23,452 nt of DNA from a virus, in the IMG/VR virus record IMGVR_UViG_3300030406_003413, positions 1 to 23,452 of that record. One strand, 5' to 3'. Made by a program: the position numbers and the translations under genes. The notes below the pieces were generated by a model, which ran no database searches, was not told where the DNA came from, and saw only the letters and a program-made list of their open reading frames with translations. Positions 4,915 through 17,058 of the stretch are shown in pieces (position 1 is the stretch's first letter; each line of letters begins with the position of its first letter).

Positions 4915-5067
4915 TTACATTAATTTATTTTTGCAAATGTCCCATACTTTATCATCTAATTTATTTTTTGATGAAGCTACTAAATAGTCTCCAACTTTAA
5001 CAAAAACTTCTTTCAGCACTTTTTCGCTAAACAAGTTTTTTACTATGATTGCTACTACATTCTTCAT
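4915..5067 (-). CDS. Small hypothetical protein (50 aa)
   Basis: This short gene is missed by length cut-offs. It encodes 50 residues starting MKNVVAIIVKNLFSEKVLKE and ending VWDICKNKLM. An amphipathic/hydrophobic N-terminal helix (VVAIIVKNLF) is followed by a Lys-rich tail. Context supports translation: an AAGGAGAAAG ribosome binding site precedes its ATG, the ATG shares four bases with the upstream stop (ATGA), and its TAA abuts the next ATG. I do not recognise a family. The helix is too short and charged for a confident membrane span. Confidence 0.7.
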   Translation of the reverse strand: MKNVVAIIVKNLFSEKVLKEVFVKVGDYLVASSKNKLDDKVWDICKNKLM

Positions 5068-5300
5068 TCTTTCTCCTTGATTGGTTTCTTACATTTCTCA
5101 CATTCCACAAAATCTCTCTTTGGGTGTGAGTCTTTAATTAAAAATTCTATTAACCTACCATGCTGAAGCAAAGTGGTTTCTATGCTATCAACTTTTACAT
5201 CAAGCTCATTAGGCTTTTCAACGTAATCTAAGATTTTACTTATCTTAAATTTTTTTGCAACAAGCTGAATTACTTTATCTATCACTATCTTCTGCAACAT
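5064..5300 (-). CDS. Hypothetical protein with helical region and CxxC tail
   Basis: This gene encodes 78 residues. The N-terminal half (VIDKVIQLVAKKFKISKILDYV) is a basic amphipathic helix. The middle (ELDVKVDSIETTLLQHGRLIEFLI) has heptad-like spacing suggesting a short coiled coil. The C-terminus holds ECEKCKKPIKEKE, a single CxxC that could bind metal in a dimer or form a disulfide. It overlaps the preceding 45-residue gene by 26 bases and the following 50-residue gene by four. I recall similar small proteins near tail genes of uncultured marine phages but cannot give a function. Confidence 0.75.
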   Translation of the reverse strand: MLQKIVIDKVIQLVAKKFKISKILDYVEKPNELDVKVDSIETTLLQHGRLIEFLIKDSHPKRDFVECEKCKKPIKEKE

Positions 5301-5412
5301 CTTTACTTATAATATGTTCATGATTAATCATGCAATGACTTGGACATGGATTTTTACTTTCATAGTTTTCAAGAAATATACCTAGCCCTACAGCCATCAT
5401 AATCATAATCAC
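5275..5412 (-). CDS. Tiny protein with hydrophobic N-terminus and Cys/His cluster (45 aa)
   Basis: The most likely start is GTG at 5412, with GGGG just upstream; in-frame ATGs at 5406 and 5400 are alternatives. It gives 45 residues: a short hydrophobic segment (MIMIMMAVGLGIFL) followed by NPCPSHCMINHEHII and an acidic tail. The Cys23, His26, Cys27, His31, His33 cluster could bind a metal ion. Its end overlaps the next gene by 26 bases. The segment is short for a transmembrane helix, so a membrane anchor or signal-like role is only possible. The coding call rests on codon continuity, the tightly packed operon and my recollection of CPSHC..NHEH-type peptides in marine phages. Confidence 0.6.
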   Translation of the reverse strand: MIMIMMAVGLGIFLENYESKNPCPSHCMINHEHIISKDVAEDSDR

Positions 5413-5421
5413 GTCCCCATA

Positions 5422-5784
5422 CTATCTTTCCTCCCACTTACTTAAATCAAGCATCTGTAATGGCCTTTCAATTACGTGGTCTTTCAGCTTATCATTCTGT
5501 ATTTGTATCTTTGTACCACCTTTGACATAAGGCTTTCCTTCTGCCATTCCTATATCATACGCAAAAAATGTTGTCTTCCATATTCCTACTCGTATACATC
5601 GTGCTGGTCTACCATCAAGAACAACAACATCATCCGTATTTAAATCTTTCCCCATGAAGACCTTTAAGCCTTCAACCACAGTTTCTATTGTGGATTTAAA
5701 TAATAAAAGAGCAACTCCAGATACAAATAACCATACCCAGTTCCCTAAGATACCTTCCGCTTGTTTTTGTAATTGCTCTTCCAT
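5422..5784 (-). CDS. Single-TM protein with MscS-like beta domain
   Basis: This gene encodes 120 residues. One hydrophobic helix lies at about 14-30 (NWVWLFVSGVALLLF), followed by an amphipathic helix (KSTIETVVEGLKVFMG) and a beta domain at about 48-107. Its pattern matches the pore-helix/beta-domain junction of the small mechanosensitive channel family: TDDVVVLDGRPARCIRVGIW (entry strands), TTFFAYDI (the 'T.l.t.dG' strand) and KIQIQNDKLKDHVIERP (the 'v.IPNs.l....i.N' strand). MscS normally has three TM helices and about 280 residues, so this is a minimal version. It lies 2 bp after a metallophosphoesterase gene. It may act in the inner membrane as a holin-like or pressure-related factor; that is inference. 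Domain assignment is by eye. Confidence 0.75.
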   Translation of the reverse strand: MEEQLQKQAEGILGNWVWLFVSGVALLLFKSTIETVVEGLKVFMGKDLNTDDVVVLDGRPARCIRVGIWKTTFFAYDIGMAEGKPYVKGGTKIQIQNDKLKDHVIERPLQMLDLSKWEER

Positions 5785-5786
5785 AA

Positions 5787-6563
5787 TTATCCATTTATTA
5801 GTTCACCCCACAATGATGTTCTACCTTGAATTATCTGTATAACATGTACTGTAAAATGACCCCTAGTGTAAAAATCAACGATGGCGAATGCATGTGACCA
5901 GTTAATACGTCTGCCTCCAAGCCACTCATTCTCTTCATCGCTCATGTCTTTCAAACAACCAATGCTCCATGCTGACTTGGGTCCATCTATGTGAGTCATT
6001 GACGACTGTTGGATATCGTGATGATGACCATACATTACATTCGCTCCCAGTCGTATTAGATGATTCCTTGTATGATGAACACCCGCAAAGTGATGGCCAT
6101 GGTAAAAGTGTAGCTTTCCAATCTTTAAATACTTTCCAGCCTTGTAATATTTGTATCCTCTTTCTTTTAATTTTACGCATTCGTTAAACCTATATTGTGT
6201 TAAGTATGGGTTTTCATTAACAAACTTGTTCATCCAGTCGTCATGATTACCCTCAATCATATATTTTTCTTTGCAGTTTGCTTTATCTAAAGACTCATCA
6301 ATTAAGTCCATTCCTGCATTTACATCTTTTACGTCTTTGTCAATAAAAGGCAACTGATATTCTAATGGTGGCCTTTTTTTCTTTGCCCATTGCCAGTGAG
6401 AGCATCCATGCCATTCACCAACATCGCCTATGTCTATGTATGCATCAGGCTTTACTATTTCTATTGCTTTCCTAACTACGCTTATTGCTTTTTTATCCGC
6501 TAGTGGAAAGTGTTTATCTGGTGTGACGAATACTCGTTTTACAACACCTTTATCTTTTTTCAT
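5787..6563 (-). CDS. Calcineurin-like metallophosphoesterase
   Basis: This gene encodes 258 residues with the full set of calcineurin-like phosphoesterase motifs in order: D16-x-H18 (PDKHFP), G46-D47 (YIDIGDVGEW), G-N-H-D at 105-108 (IEGNHDDW), H155-G-H157 (FYHGHH) and G-H-x-H at 179-182 (YGHHHD). These residues hold the two-metal site of the family, so the protein is probably catalytically active on a phosphoester. The substrate (DNA ends, nucleotides, cyclic nucleotides, protein) cannot be told. It lies in the late operon between a one-TM protein and an MscS-like protein, where a structural gene would be expected. The start ATG follows the upstream stop by 6 bp. Confidence 0.92.
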   Translation of the reverse strand: MKKDKGVVKRVFVTPDKHFPLADKKAISVVRKAIEIVKPDAYIDIGDVGEWHGCSHWQWAKKKRPPLEYQLPFIDKDVKDVNAGMDLIDESLDKANCKEKYMIEGNHDDWMNKFVNENPYLTQYRFNECVKLKERGYKYYKAGKYLKIGKLHFYHGHHFAGVHHTRNHLIRLGANVMYGHHHDIQQSSMTHIDGPKSAWSIGCLKDMSDEENEWLGGRRINWSHAFAIVDFYTRGHFTVHVIQIIQGRTSLWGELING

Positions 6564-6569
6564 ATAAAC

Positions 6570-6719
6570 CTATTTTTTAAGTTCGTTTTTTATCTTTACA
6601 CAGATGTATACAAATGATGCAAGTCCAACCAGTACTCTAACCGTAACTGGAAGCCATTCAATCCAGGTAACACTTATACCTGTGACTGCAACTAAATTTG
6701 TTTTCATTGTTTCTACCAT
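6570..6719 (-). CDS. Small single-TM protein, holin candidate (49 aa)
   Basis: This 49-residue gene begins MVETMKTNLVAVTG; an internal ATG at 6707 is an alternative start. A hydrophobic stretch at about 22-42 (WLPVTVRVLVGLASFVYIC) is followed by a basic tail (VKIKNELKK). A single span with a positive C-terminus is common among small phage holins or spanin-like accessory proteins. Its start overlaps the end of the upstream gene by 7 bases and its stop is 6 bp before the metallophosphoesterase. No close family is recognised. Since the endolysin is about 10 kb upstream in the same operon, a holin role is only a suggestion. Confidence 0.65.
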   Translation of the reverse strand: MVETMKTNLVAVTGISVTWIEWLPVTVRVLVGLASFVYICVKIKNELKK

Positions 6720-15100: not shown

Positions 15101-16663
15101 TCATATTCGTCTCCCTGTCATCCAATCATACATCTTTCTAGGCTTTATCCAAGAACCATCACGTTGCAATTCTTTTTTAGCTGTGCCTGCTTTTGGATTA
15201 CCTTTAGCAAACTGTGTTGCAAGATAGAATGCATCAATAATATCGTCATGAGAACCTTTTGGAAAATCAATAAGCTCATCAATAAATTCATGGTGTTGCT
15301 TTTTTAGATGTACAGCCCCAGCTTTGAACATAGGCTGCAAACCTTCAAACAATCTATCTTTCTTTTTAGAGTTATAGTTCTTAATACCTTTTTCTATACC
15401 AGGCAAAAACAATCCTTCAGACTTACTGCGTTTCATTATGTAGTCACGTAACATTTCTTGATATGCAATTGTTTCAATATTAATACGTCTTATGGGCGTG
15501 TATTGTTTCGCAATCTTAAATATTTCATCAGCACACTCCATGGGCAGAACTCTTTTACGCCAATATTCAATAACGTAATAATCATAATCAGATGTAACCC
15601 CAAGAACCATAATAACAGAATAATCGCTACGCTTAGTGATTGTAGAAGCTGGGTCCACTCCAATGTAAATATTAACATACTTTCTATCTCCATTTGCAAA
15701 CTGTATATACCAAGAGTCTGCTGATTCATCAAAACGTGCATTGCCTTGGTACAGTCCATCGTTTATATCGTCTTCACTAAATATTTGGTCTTCAGGTGAT
15801 TTGGCCTGGTTCATATACTCTTGATAGAACTTTGCTGGTGTACCTGAGTCAATATAAAACTGTTTACGTTCTTCTAGTTTTTTCATTGGCCATCTTGAAG
15901 GCCATATAGGTTTGCCATCTTCGATAGCTTTACGTGTATACACATCCCAAGTATATTCTTCGCCTGTTTTTTCTGCTTCTTGTTTATTTCTTACCAACAC
16001 ATTCAAAAATGCATCATAGTGTACAATTGTGCCATTGCACCACAAGAAACCATTTTTATCAAAATCAATTGCTGGATATACTGCTGCAGTAACCCATTCT
16101 TTAATTTGTCTACGTGAATCAGGTGTTTTAGTATTTAGCTCTGATTCAAAGTCATCAAGTATTATACCTGTATATCTTGATGATAATTGTTTTTTACCAC
16201 GTAATCTTTGTGATGTACCCTTGCCAATCATCCTGCAGCCATTACTCAAAGTAAATTCATCTTTGGTCCACTTATCTCCCTGTAAATCACCAAAGTAGTA
16301 ATGTATAGCAGGATTAGAATATATATGGTTTGCAATCCAGTTTAAATTATCTCTGGCCTGGTCTTGTGCTTCACCAACCCATGCAATAAACTCAGGCCTA
16401 TCTTTACTTGCAAATAAAAACCGATGCAACACTGCACATGCAGCCAACGTAGATTTTGCATGGTCACGTGGCAATACCAATGCTAATTGTTGTTTATTTT
16501 TATCTAATAATAGTTTTCCTACATCGATATGAAAGTCTGGTGTAGCAGACGCAAGAAAATCTTGTGGTGAAAAAAGTTTACCGAATGTTATTAGGTTTTT
16601 ATGAGCTAGATGTAAAGCTTCTTCGTTCTTAGATATGTTGCCATTAAGATTTAGATTTGCCAT
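15101..16663 (-). CDS. terL: Large terminase subunit (ATPase/nuclease)
   Basis: This gene encodes 520 residues with both terminase domains. ATPase domain: a Walker-A-like LPRDHAKST at 64-72, Walker B GIILDDFE at 166-173 (D170, D171, E173), and the coupling segment LWCNGT near 207-212. Nuclease domain: GVDPAS (D337), INIETIA (E397) and SHDDIIDA (D473/D474) supply the three metal-binding acidic positions. It packages DNA into the prohead together with the small subunit. The first base of its ATG overlaps the endolysin TAA (TAATG). Four genes separate it from the small terminase, which is unusual. Confidence 0.96.
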   Translation of the reverse strand: MANLNLNGNISKNEEALHLAHKNLITFGKLFSPQDFLASATPDFHIDVGKLLLDKNKQQLALVLPRDHAKSTLAACAVLHRFLFASKDRPEFIAWVGEAQDQARDNLNWIANHIYSNPAIHYYFGDLQGDKWTKDEFTLSNGCRMIGKGTSQRLRGKKQLSSRYTGIILDDFESELNTKTPDSRRQIKEWVTAAVYPAIDFDKNGFLWCNGTIVHYDAFLNVLVRNKQEAEKTGEEYTWDVYTRKAIEDGKPIWPSRWPMKKLEERKQFYIDSGTPAKFYQEYMNQAKSPEDQIFSEDDINDGLYQGNARFDESADSWYIQFANGDRKYVNIYIGVDPASTITKRSDYSVIMVLGVTSDYDYYVIEYWRKRVLPMECADEIFKIAKQYTPIRRINIETIAYQEMLRDYIMKRSKSEGLFLPGIEKGIKNYNSKKKDRLFEGLQPMFKAGAVHLKKQHHEFIDELIDFPKGSHDDIIDAFYLATQFAKGNPKAGTAKKELQRDGSWIKPRKMYDWMTGRRI

Positions 16664-17058
16664 TAAATGTTTGTAAGTTCAAAATGCGGCAAGTCATCAA
16701 AGCCATTATCCTTGACTTCTGTATCTTGGTCCCAATCACCACCCCATCTAAGGCCAATACCTTTTGCTTTGGCAATGCCCATAACCATGCCCGCAAAGTA
16801 TGTCATACGTTCTCTATCTTTCCAGTCAATAGGATAAGGTGCAACATCTACCGCAATAGATGGTTTTTTGTTATGGCGGCCATGTGGCCATTTAACTTTT
16901 GAATGTCCAGACTCATATGCTTTGTTTTGGTCTGCTTCGCCTCGATGTCCACATAATACTGAACAATCAAAGTATTTAATGACTTCATTTAAAATTTCTT
17001 GCAAGTCTTCGTGACATGTTGCTAATCTACGTTTTGATGTTTTTCCAAATCTTGGCAT
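16663..17058 (-). CDS. M15-family peptidase endolysin (L-Ala-D-Glu / VanY-like)
   Basis: This gene encodes 131 residues, a typical single-domain size for this phage endolysin family. Conserved elements are CGHRGEADQNKAYESGHSKV near 36-55, HNKKPSIAVDVAPYPIDW at 62-79 (zinc ligands H62 and D71), and DDLPHFEL at 121-128 (ligand H125 with adjacent acidic D121/D122). It should cut the peptide cross-bridge of peptidoglycan. It has no signal peptide, so release would need a holin or other membrane lesion. GGAG precedes the ATG and lies in an 8-bp gap after the upstream gene. Placement just before the large terminase is uncommon. Confidence 0.93.
   Translation of the reverse strand: MPRFGKTSKRRLATCHEDLQEILNEVIKYFDCSVLCGHRGEADQNKAYESGHSKVKWPHGRHNKKPSIAVDVAPYPIDWKDRERMTYFAGMVMGIAKAKGIGLRWGGDWDQDTEVKDNGFDDLPHFELTNI

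Follow-up and report, generated by a model that had tools for sequence, protein, structure and literature searches.

The window analysed here, by which the whole stretch of DNA is meant, is a 23,452-bp virus record, and the phage that it represents encodes a P22-type portal, an SU10-type major capsid protein (MCP), a terminase and an M15-type endolysin. At 5422..5784 (-) lies an ORF with an ATG start, whose 120-aa product is recognised as a minimal MscS protein (hereafter mini-MscS) on the basis of the ORF list, its family, the Pfam family PF00924, hhalign and Foldseek. Immediately upstream is the gene of a calcineurin-type metallophosphoesterase (5787..6563 (-); phrog_221 by PHROG), whose stop codon is situated 2 nt before the mini-MscS ATG, and beyond it that of a 49-aa one-TM protein (6570..6719 (-)), a holin candidate placed in cluster 3 by neighbour clustering. 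Both had been named in the first-pass annotation, which described a phosphoesterase and a small TM protein beside the gene, and both are real. Judged by eye, the phosphoesterase keeps all of the calcineurin-type motifs (DKH, GDVGE, GNHD and GHHH); it has no match in Pfam.

Downstream of mini-MscS, further small genes occupy the same strand. A 45-aa ORF with a GTG start and a hydrophobic N-terminus (5275..5412 (-)) is a weak assignment, kept only by the closest relatives. It is followed by a 78-aa charged, helical-looking protein of cluster 1 (5064..5300 (-)) and by a conserved neighbour of 50 aa, assigned by PHROG to phrog_402, a family whose function is not known (4915..5067 (-)). The KLDDKVW motif of this last protein resembles the SKKDDLVWD tail of 49-aa proteins from other lineages, and from these motifs the two groups may possibly constitute one family of small membrane-active proteins. 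The endolysin of the window phage, of the M15-peptidase type (phrog_465 by PHROG), is encoded at 16663..17058 (-), 11 kb away from mini-MscS.

Family and anatomy of the mini-MscS protein

The first-pass annotation had proposed a search for homologues in other phages, and the gene was indeed found at 274 loci (a count in which one contig may have entered under more than one locus id), which encode 158 distinct proteins, mostly of 119-128 aa. The dN/dS values between mini-MscS and its close relatives are about 0.02-0.06, and the gene is under strong purifying selection. Given the number of loci that encode it and these dN/dS values, mini-MscS is not a chance ORF; it represents a widespread, unannotated phage family, present on hundreds of uncultured phage contigs.

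The protein contains a single hydrophobic segment, at about residues 14-30, within a predicted helix that spans residues 2-44, in agreement with the one TM helix originally described. Hydropathy, the AF2 helix and entropy delimit this segment as TM3a-like (5695..5745 (-)). The remainder of the helix, residues 31-45 (5650..5694 (-)), is the counterpart of TM3b according to the hhalign register and the AF2 helix, with G39 falling on G121 of E. coli MscS (EcMscS). The beta domain comprises residues 46-105 (5470..5649 (-); AF2, hhalign and entropy) and is predicted by AF2 to contain strands at 53-56, 59-66, 70-81 and 84-96 and a short helix at 97-102, an insertion at residues 78-89 extending the beta3-beta4 hairpin. 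The three motifs first quoted for the product (DDVVVLDG, TTFFAYD and IQIQNDKL) are all present in it. A C-terminal tail at residues 106-117 (E-PLQMLDLSKW; 5434..5469 (-)), delimited by entropy, completes the protein at the point where MscS would run on into its alpha/beta cage. With 120 aa and one hydrophobic segment, mini-MscS is devoid of TM1, TM2 and the C-terminal alpha/beta cage, and does not qualify as a canonical full-length MscS, which has at least three TM helices plus the cage. Instead, its TM3-like helix is joined directly to the beta domain, as reflected both in the ungapped hhalign register through TM3b and in the AF2 helix at 2-44.

The protein becomes more conserved towards its C-terminus, mean entropy falling from 1.54 bits in the TM segment to 0.68 in the beta domain and 0.36 in the tail, so that the N-terminus and the hydrophobic segment are the least conserved part and the tail the most conserved stretch. 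Across all of the phages the tail is near-invariant as PL[QP]MLDL, and in its sequence it looks like a partner-binding motif. Such strong conservation of the cytoplasmic domain and the tail suggests more than a simple pore, namely interaction with another protein. Unlike TM3a of MscS, the helix is not obviously rich in Gly and Ala, although G14 never varies and position 23 is either G or A, and the EcMscS kink residues P129, G143 and P166 are replaced by D47, A61 and Q96. Neither the missing Gly/Ala packing nor the missing kink residues are taken to exclude a relationship to MscS, because the homology of the domain is direct. The N-terminus is acidic (mean net charge -2.2), which would fit an N-out, C-in topology, that is, the orientation of TM3 in MscS.

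Relationship to the MscS superfamily

Searched alone, the 120-aa protein has no match in Pfam, PHROG or PDB sequence searches, and a profile of 35 family sequences retrieved from the PDB only a chance match to tau. At the level of the family, a Pfam search with 75 members places PF00924, which corresponds to the MscS beta domain, ahead of all others, nine members matching it with a best E of 0.016. The relative L133 matches it with an E of 8.5e-5 and 16.7 bits, compared to a curated cut-off of 20.2, and no single family member passes the Pfam cut-off. Profile-profile comparison by hhalign, with a template of 32 MscS sequences from 31 cyanobacterial MscS loci, gave a collinear alignment that starts in the TM3 helix and runs through the beta domain with a score of 28.8 (P ~1e-4). 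Of 300 column-shuffled MscS profiles the best scored 21.0, and the reversed-profile control scored 12, both below the real alignment. The first-pass annotation had named profile searches empty of MscS as evidence against its assignment; this is what the lone sequence gives, whereas the alignment of the family recovers MscS through both PF00924 and hhalign.

When E. coli MscS is added to the template, phage residues 27-105 align to EcMscS 109-175, and the sole gap is the 12-residue phage insertion in the beta3-beta4 hairpin. In this register K30 falls on Q112, G39 on G121, D47 on P129, A61 on G143, Q96 on P166 and N97 on N167. The claim that the motifs follow the order and spacing of MscS is thus borne out, the alignment being ungapped save for that insertion.

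Structure prediction points in the same direction. An AF2 model built from 75 sequences (pLDDT 83) shows the long helix at 2-44 leading into five strands and a short helix, so that a beta domain does follow the helix, as had been anticipated. Among 350,542 PDB chains, Foldseek ranks 1-29 are all MscS-family channels, including EcMscS in both open and closed forms, AtMSL10, Flycatcher1 and EcMscK, with probabilities of 0.99-1.00, E values of 0.008-0.05, 83-94 aligned columns and identities of about 16-24%; no individual match in this set of chains reached E < 1e-3. An earlier model from 16 sequences (pLDDT 76) gave ambiguous fold matches, an ambiguity that the deeper alignment resolved. The assignment to the MscS family is considered decisive because this unbroken run of MscS structures is accompanied by independent profile evidence. 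The MscS-like core first proposed for the product is upheld by PF00924 at family level, by hhalign with its controls and by AF2/Foldseek, and the 120-aa protein is almost certainly derived from MscS, of which it retains the TM3-equivalent helix and the beta domain.

Carrier phages, gene neighbourhood and possible function

An SU10-type MCP is encoded in 31 of the 40 records tested, while L087 and its kin encode an MCP of the phrog_267 type; carriers of mini-MscS span at least two capsid types. Used as tblastn queries against isolate phages, three different members retrieved no relative, and the terminase of the window phage is less than 30% identical to those of the best isolate phages among the matches listed. 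In GTDB genomes only one relative was found, in the Prochlorococcus single-cell assembly AG-436-M02. It is located on a 46,061-bp contig that is matched in IMG/VR by a virus record of 46,061 bp (L134 / L195), suggesting Prochlorococcus as the host of this lineage. The same assembly also encodes a full-length MscS homologue. Matches of EcMscS in the phage collection were considered as possible phage MscS genes and rejected, as they include records named as Salmonella bacterial contigs, as well as assemblies that lack annotation, and none is close to the mini-MscS family. One such entry, AGRM01000002.1, is a 691-kb Salmonella enterica record carrying mscS. Bacterial chromosome contigs of this kind in a phage collection can mislead anyone who surveys it for channels encoded by phages.

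The neighbourhood was surveyed in 107 non-identical loci with flanks, which are related to each other, so that the counts are not independent. A phosphoesterase of phrog_221 or phrog_284 is located at most three genes from mini-MscS in 83 of the 107, and the occurrence of two phosphoesterase families in one slot across phages suggests a functional link with mini-MscS. The cluster 3 one-TM family is found within three genes in 65 loci, the cluster of the 78-aa protein occurs in 68, and 81 loci have some small TM gene on the same strand at most two genes away. A lysin is encoded at most four genes away in 46 loci, belonging to one of three unrelated families, proven or probable, namely the T4-lysozyme type (phrog_7/PF00959; 31 loci), phrog_3108 (11 loci) and the M15 type (phrog_465; 4 loci); the other 61 loci have no recognised lysin within that distance. 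A relative of the M15-type endolysin of the window phage is found at most three genes from mini-MscS in four other loci. Regarding phrog_3108, a family whose function is not known, it is a probable lysin because a relative directly adjoins an annotated holin in Vibrio phage PhiPS02 and because a member (L292:6214-6663 (+)) has a transglycosylase-like ESGY...GFWQVE motif, which makes it a candidate unannotated endolysin family. A recurrent gene order is MCP, lysozyme, phosphoesterase, small TM protein and mini-MscS. Directly after mini-MscS, a small TM plus coiled-coil protein of cluster 33 is encoded in L244-L247, L253, L254, L256 and L257, with weak matches to Rz-like spanins (best E 0.0011).

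The first-pass annotation suggested a holin, an anti-holin or an osmotic protection factor, and the gene neighbourhood favours a role in the lysis module. The main argument for such a role is that different lysins accompany the gene in different phage backbones. According to the proposal that we favour on balance, mini-MscS would be synthesised late, alongside structural and lysis genes, and would assemble in the host inner membrane into a ring (of seven subunits if it resembles MscS and microsporidian MscS2), whose pore would let ions and small solutes through and exclude folded endolysin. As a channel that resembles a pinholin or regulates a holin, it would then help to control membrane energisation, or the osmotic state of the cell, at about the time of lysis. 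Regarding its separate parts, it is probable that mini-MscS forms an oligomeric pore, whereas its action in the lysis module is possible but slightly doubtful. It is rather unlikely that it defines an MscS-derived class of lysis control, in which a one-helix heptameric pore would sense the membrane or energy state and time holin and endolysin, as the first lysis component with cellular ion-channel ancestry. A classical pinholin/SAR pairing was examined as well, but hydropathy detects no TM or SAR-like segment in the neighbouring lysins. Since an MscS-sized pore would block folded endolysin and these lysins are devoid of a signal-anchor-like TM segment, direct pairing of this kind is unsupported, and a separate holin is consequently likely, possibly the small one-TM neighbour.

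This proposal has two main rivals, a safety valve against osmotic stress and a scaffold that does not conduct. In the former, mini-MscS would replace or supplement host MscS, releasing solutes when the breakdown of host macromolecules or the weakening of the envelope raises turgor, and would thereby prevent the cell from bursting before virions are mature. Its homology to a release valve and its location in the late region agree with this, as does the precedent of the miniature MscS of T. cruzi, which is still mechanosensitive with a reduced membrane domain (PMC12334622); but TM1-TM2, the membrane-facing sensor of MscS, are missing, and the Prochlorococcus assembly that carries a relative already possesses a full-length homologue, so that this function is judged unlikely. 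Alternatively, the beta domain might be the oligomerisation platform of a membrane-anchored ring that conducts nothing and recruits a phage or host partner, its near-invariant beta domain and PLPMLDL tail tethering, for example, a phosphoesterase or a lysis protein to the membrane. The rise in conservation from the TM segment to the tail and the frequent proximity of the phosphoesterase are in line with such a scaffold; nevertheless, mini-MscS, like the microsporidian channel, retains TM3 along with the beta domain, and its helix is partly conserved, which leaves this reading quite unlikely.

Two other roles are much less probable than lysis control. As the gene resides among structural genes and adjoins large virion-like proteins in several lineages, its product might be a virion component, ejected to form an inner-membrane pore for genome entry. 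This is very improbable, as lysins and small TM proteins occupy the same place, hydrophobic TM proteins are unusual as capsid contents and we know of no ejection protein of the MscS fold. Superinfection exclusion and counter-defence, on the other hand, are common roles among small phage membrane proteins, and the neighbouring phosphoesterase could, speculatively, degrade a signalling nucleotide; the late-region location and the recurrent lysin neighbours speak against such a role, to which the lowest probability of all is given.

Significance and comparison with known systems

With mini-MscS the MscS superfamily gains a viral branch, which current family libraries leave unnamed. As a small natural protein in which the TM1-TM2 sensor is absent, it allows the essentials of MscS assembly and gating to be tested, and, if the lysis role is true, it would be a phage membrane effector of a new type, present on hundreds of uncultured phage contigs. 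Our search of the open-licence PMC literature retrieved no report of MscS or minimal MscS in phages. A survey of viral transport genes found mechanosensitive channels in three large eukaryotic viruses only and none in phages, the MscS-like protein among them having 261 aa and 3 TMs (PMC6163359). Like mini-MscS these MscS- or MscL-like genes are virus-encoded, but they are three isolated cases from eukaryotic viruses.

Among phage proteins, pinholin S21-68 forms a heptameric channel of ~2 nm (PMC9636201) and is likewise a small membrane protein; it is encoded among lysis genes, as mini-MscS often is. It differs from mini-MscS in having two TM segments, no beta domain and SAR endolysin partners, and no sequence relation between the two was seen.

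Within the superfamily (PF00924, MS_channel_2nd), E. coli MscS and mini-MscS share the passage from TM3 into the beta domain, the order and spacing of strands, the fold match and the positions N167/N97 and G121/G39. Only the E. coli channel has TM1, TM2 and the cage, whereas the hairpin insertion of 12 residues and the conserved tail are unique to the phage protein, which does not keep P129, G143 and P166. Trypanosoma cruzi TcMscS is also a miniature MscS, still mechanosensitive despite its reduced membrane part (PMC12334622), although it is eukaryotic and has two membrane helices. The closest architectural precedent is MscS2 of the microsporidian Nematocida displodere, a homo-heptameric channel protein made up of TMH3 and the beta domain alone (PMC11262690). 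This protein, of similar length, belongs to a eukaryotic parasite, and the likeness is one of shared beta-domain plan; it represents an independent reduction to TMH3 plus beta domain, and the minimal TM3-plus-beta plan is now shown outside microsporidia as well.
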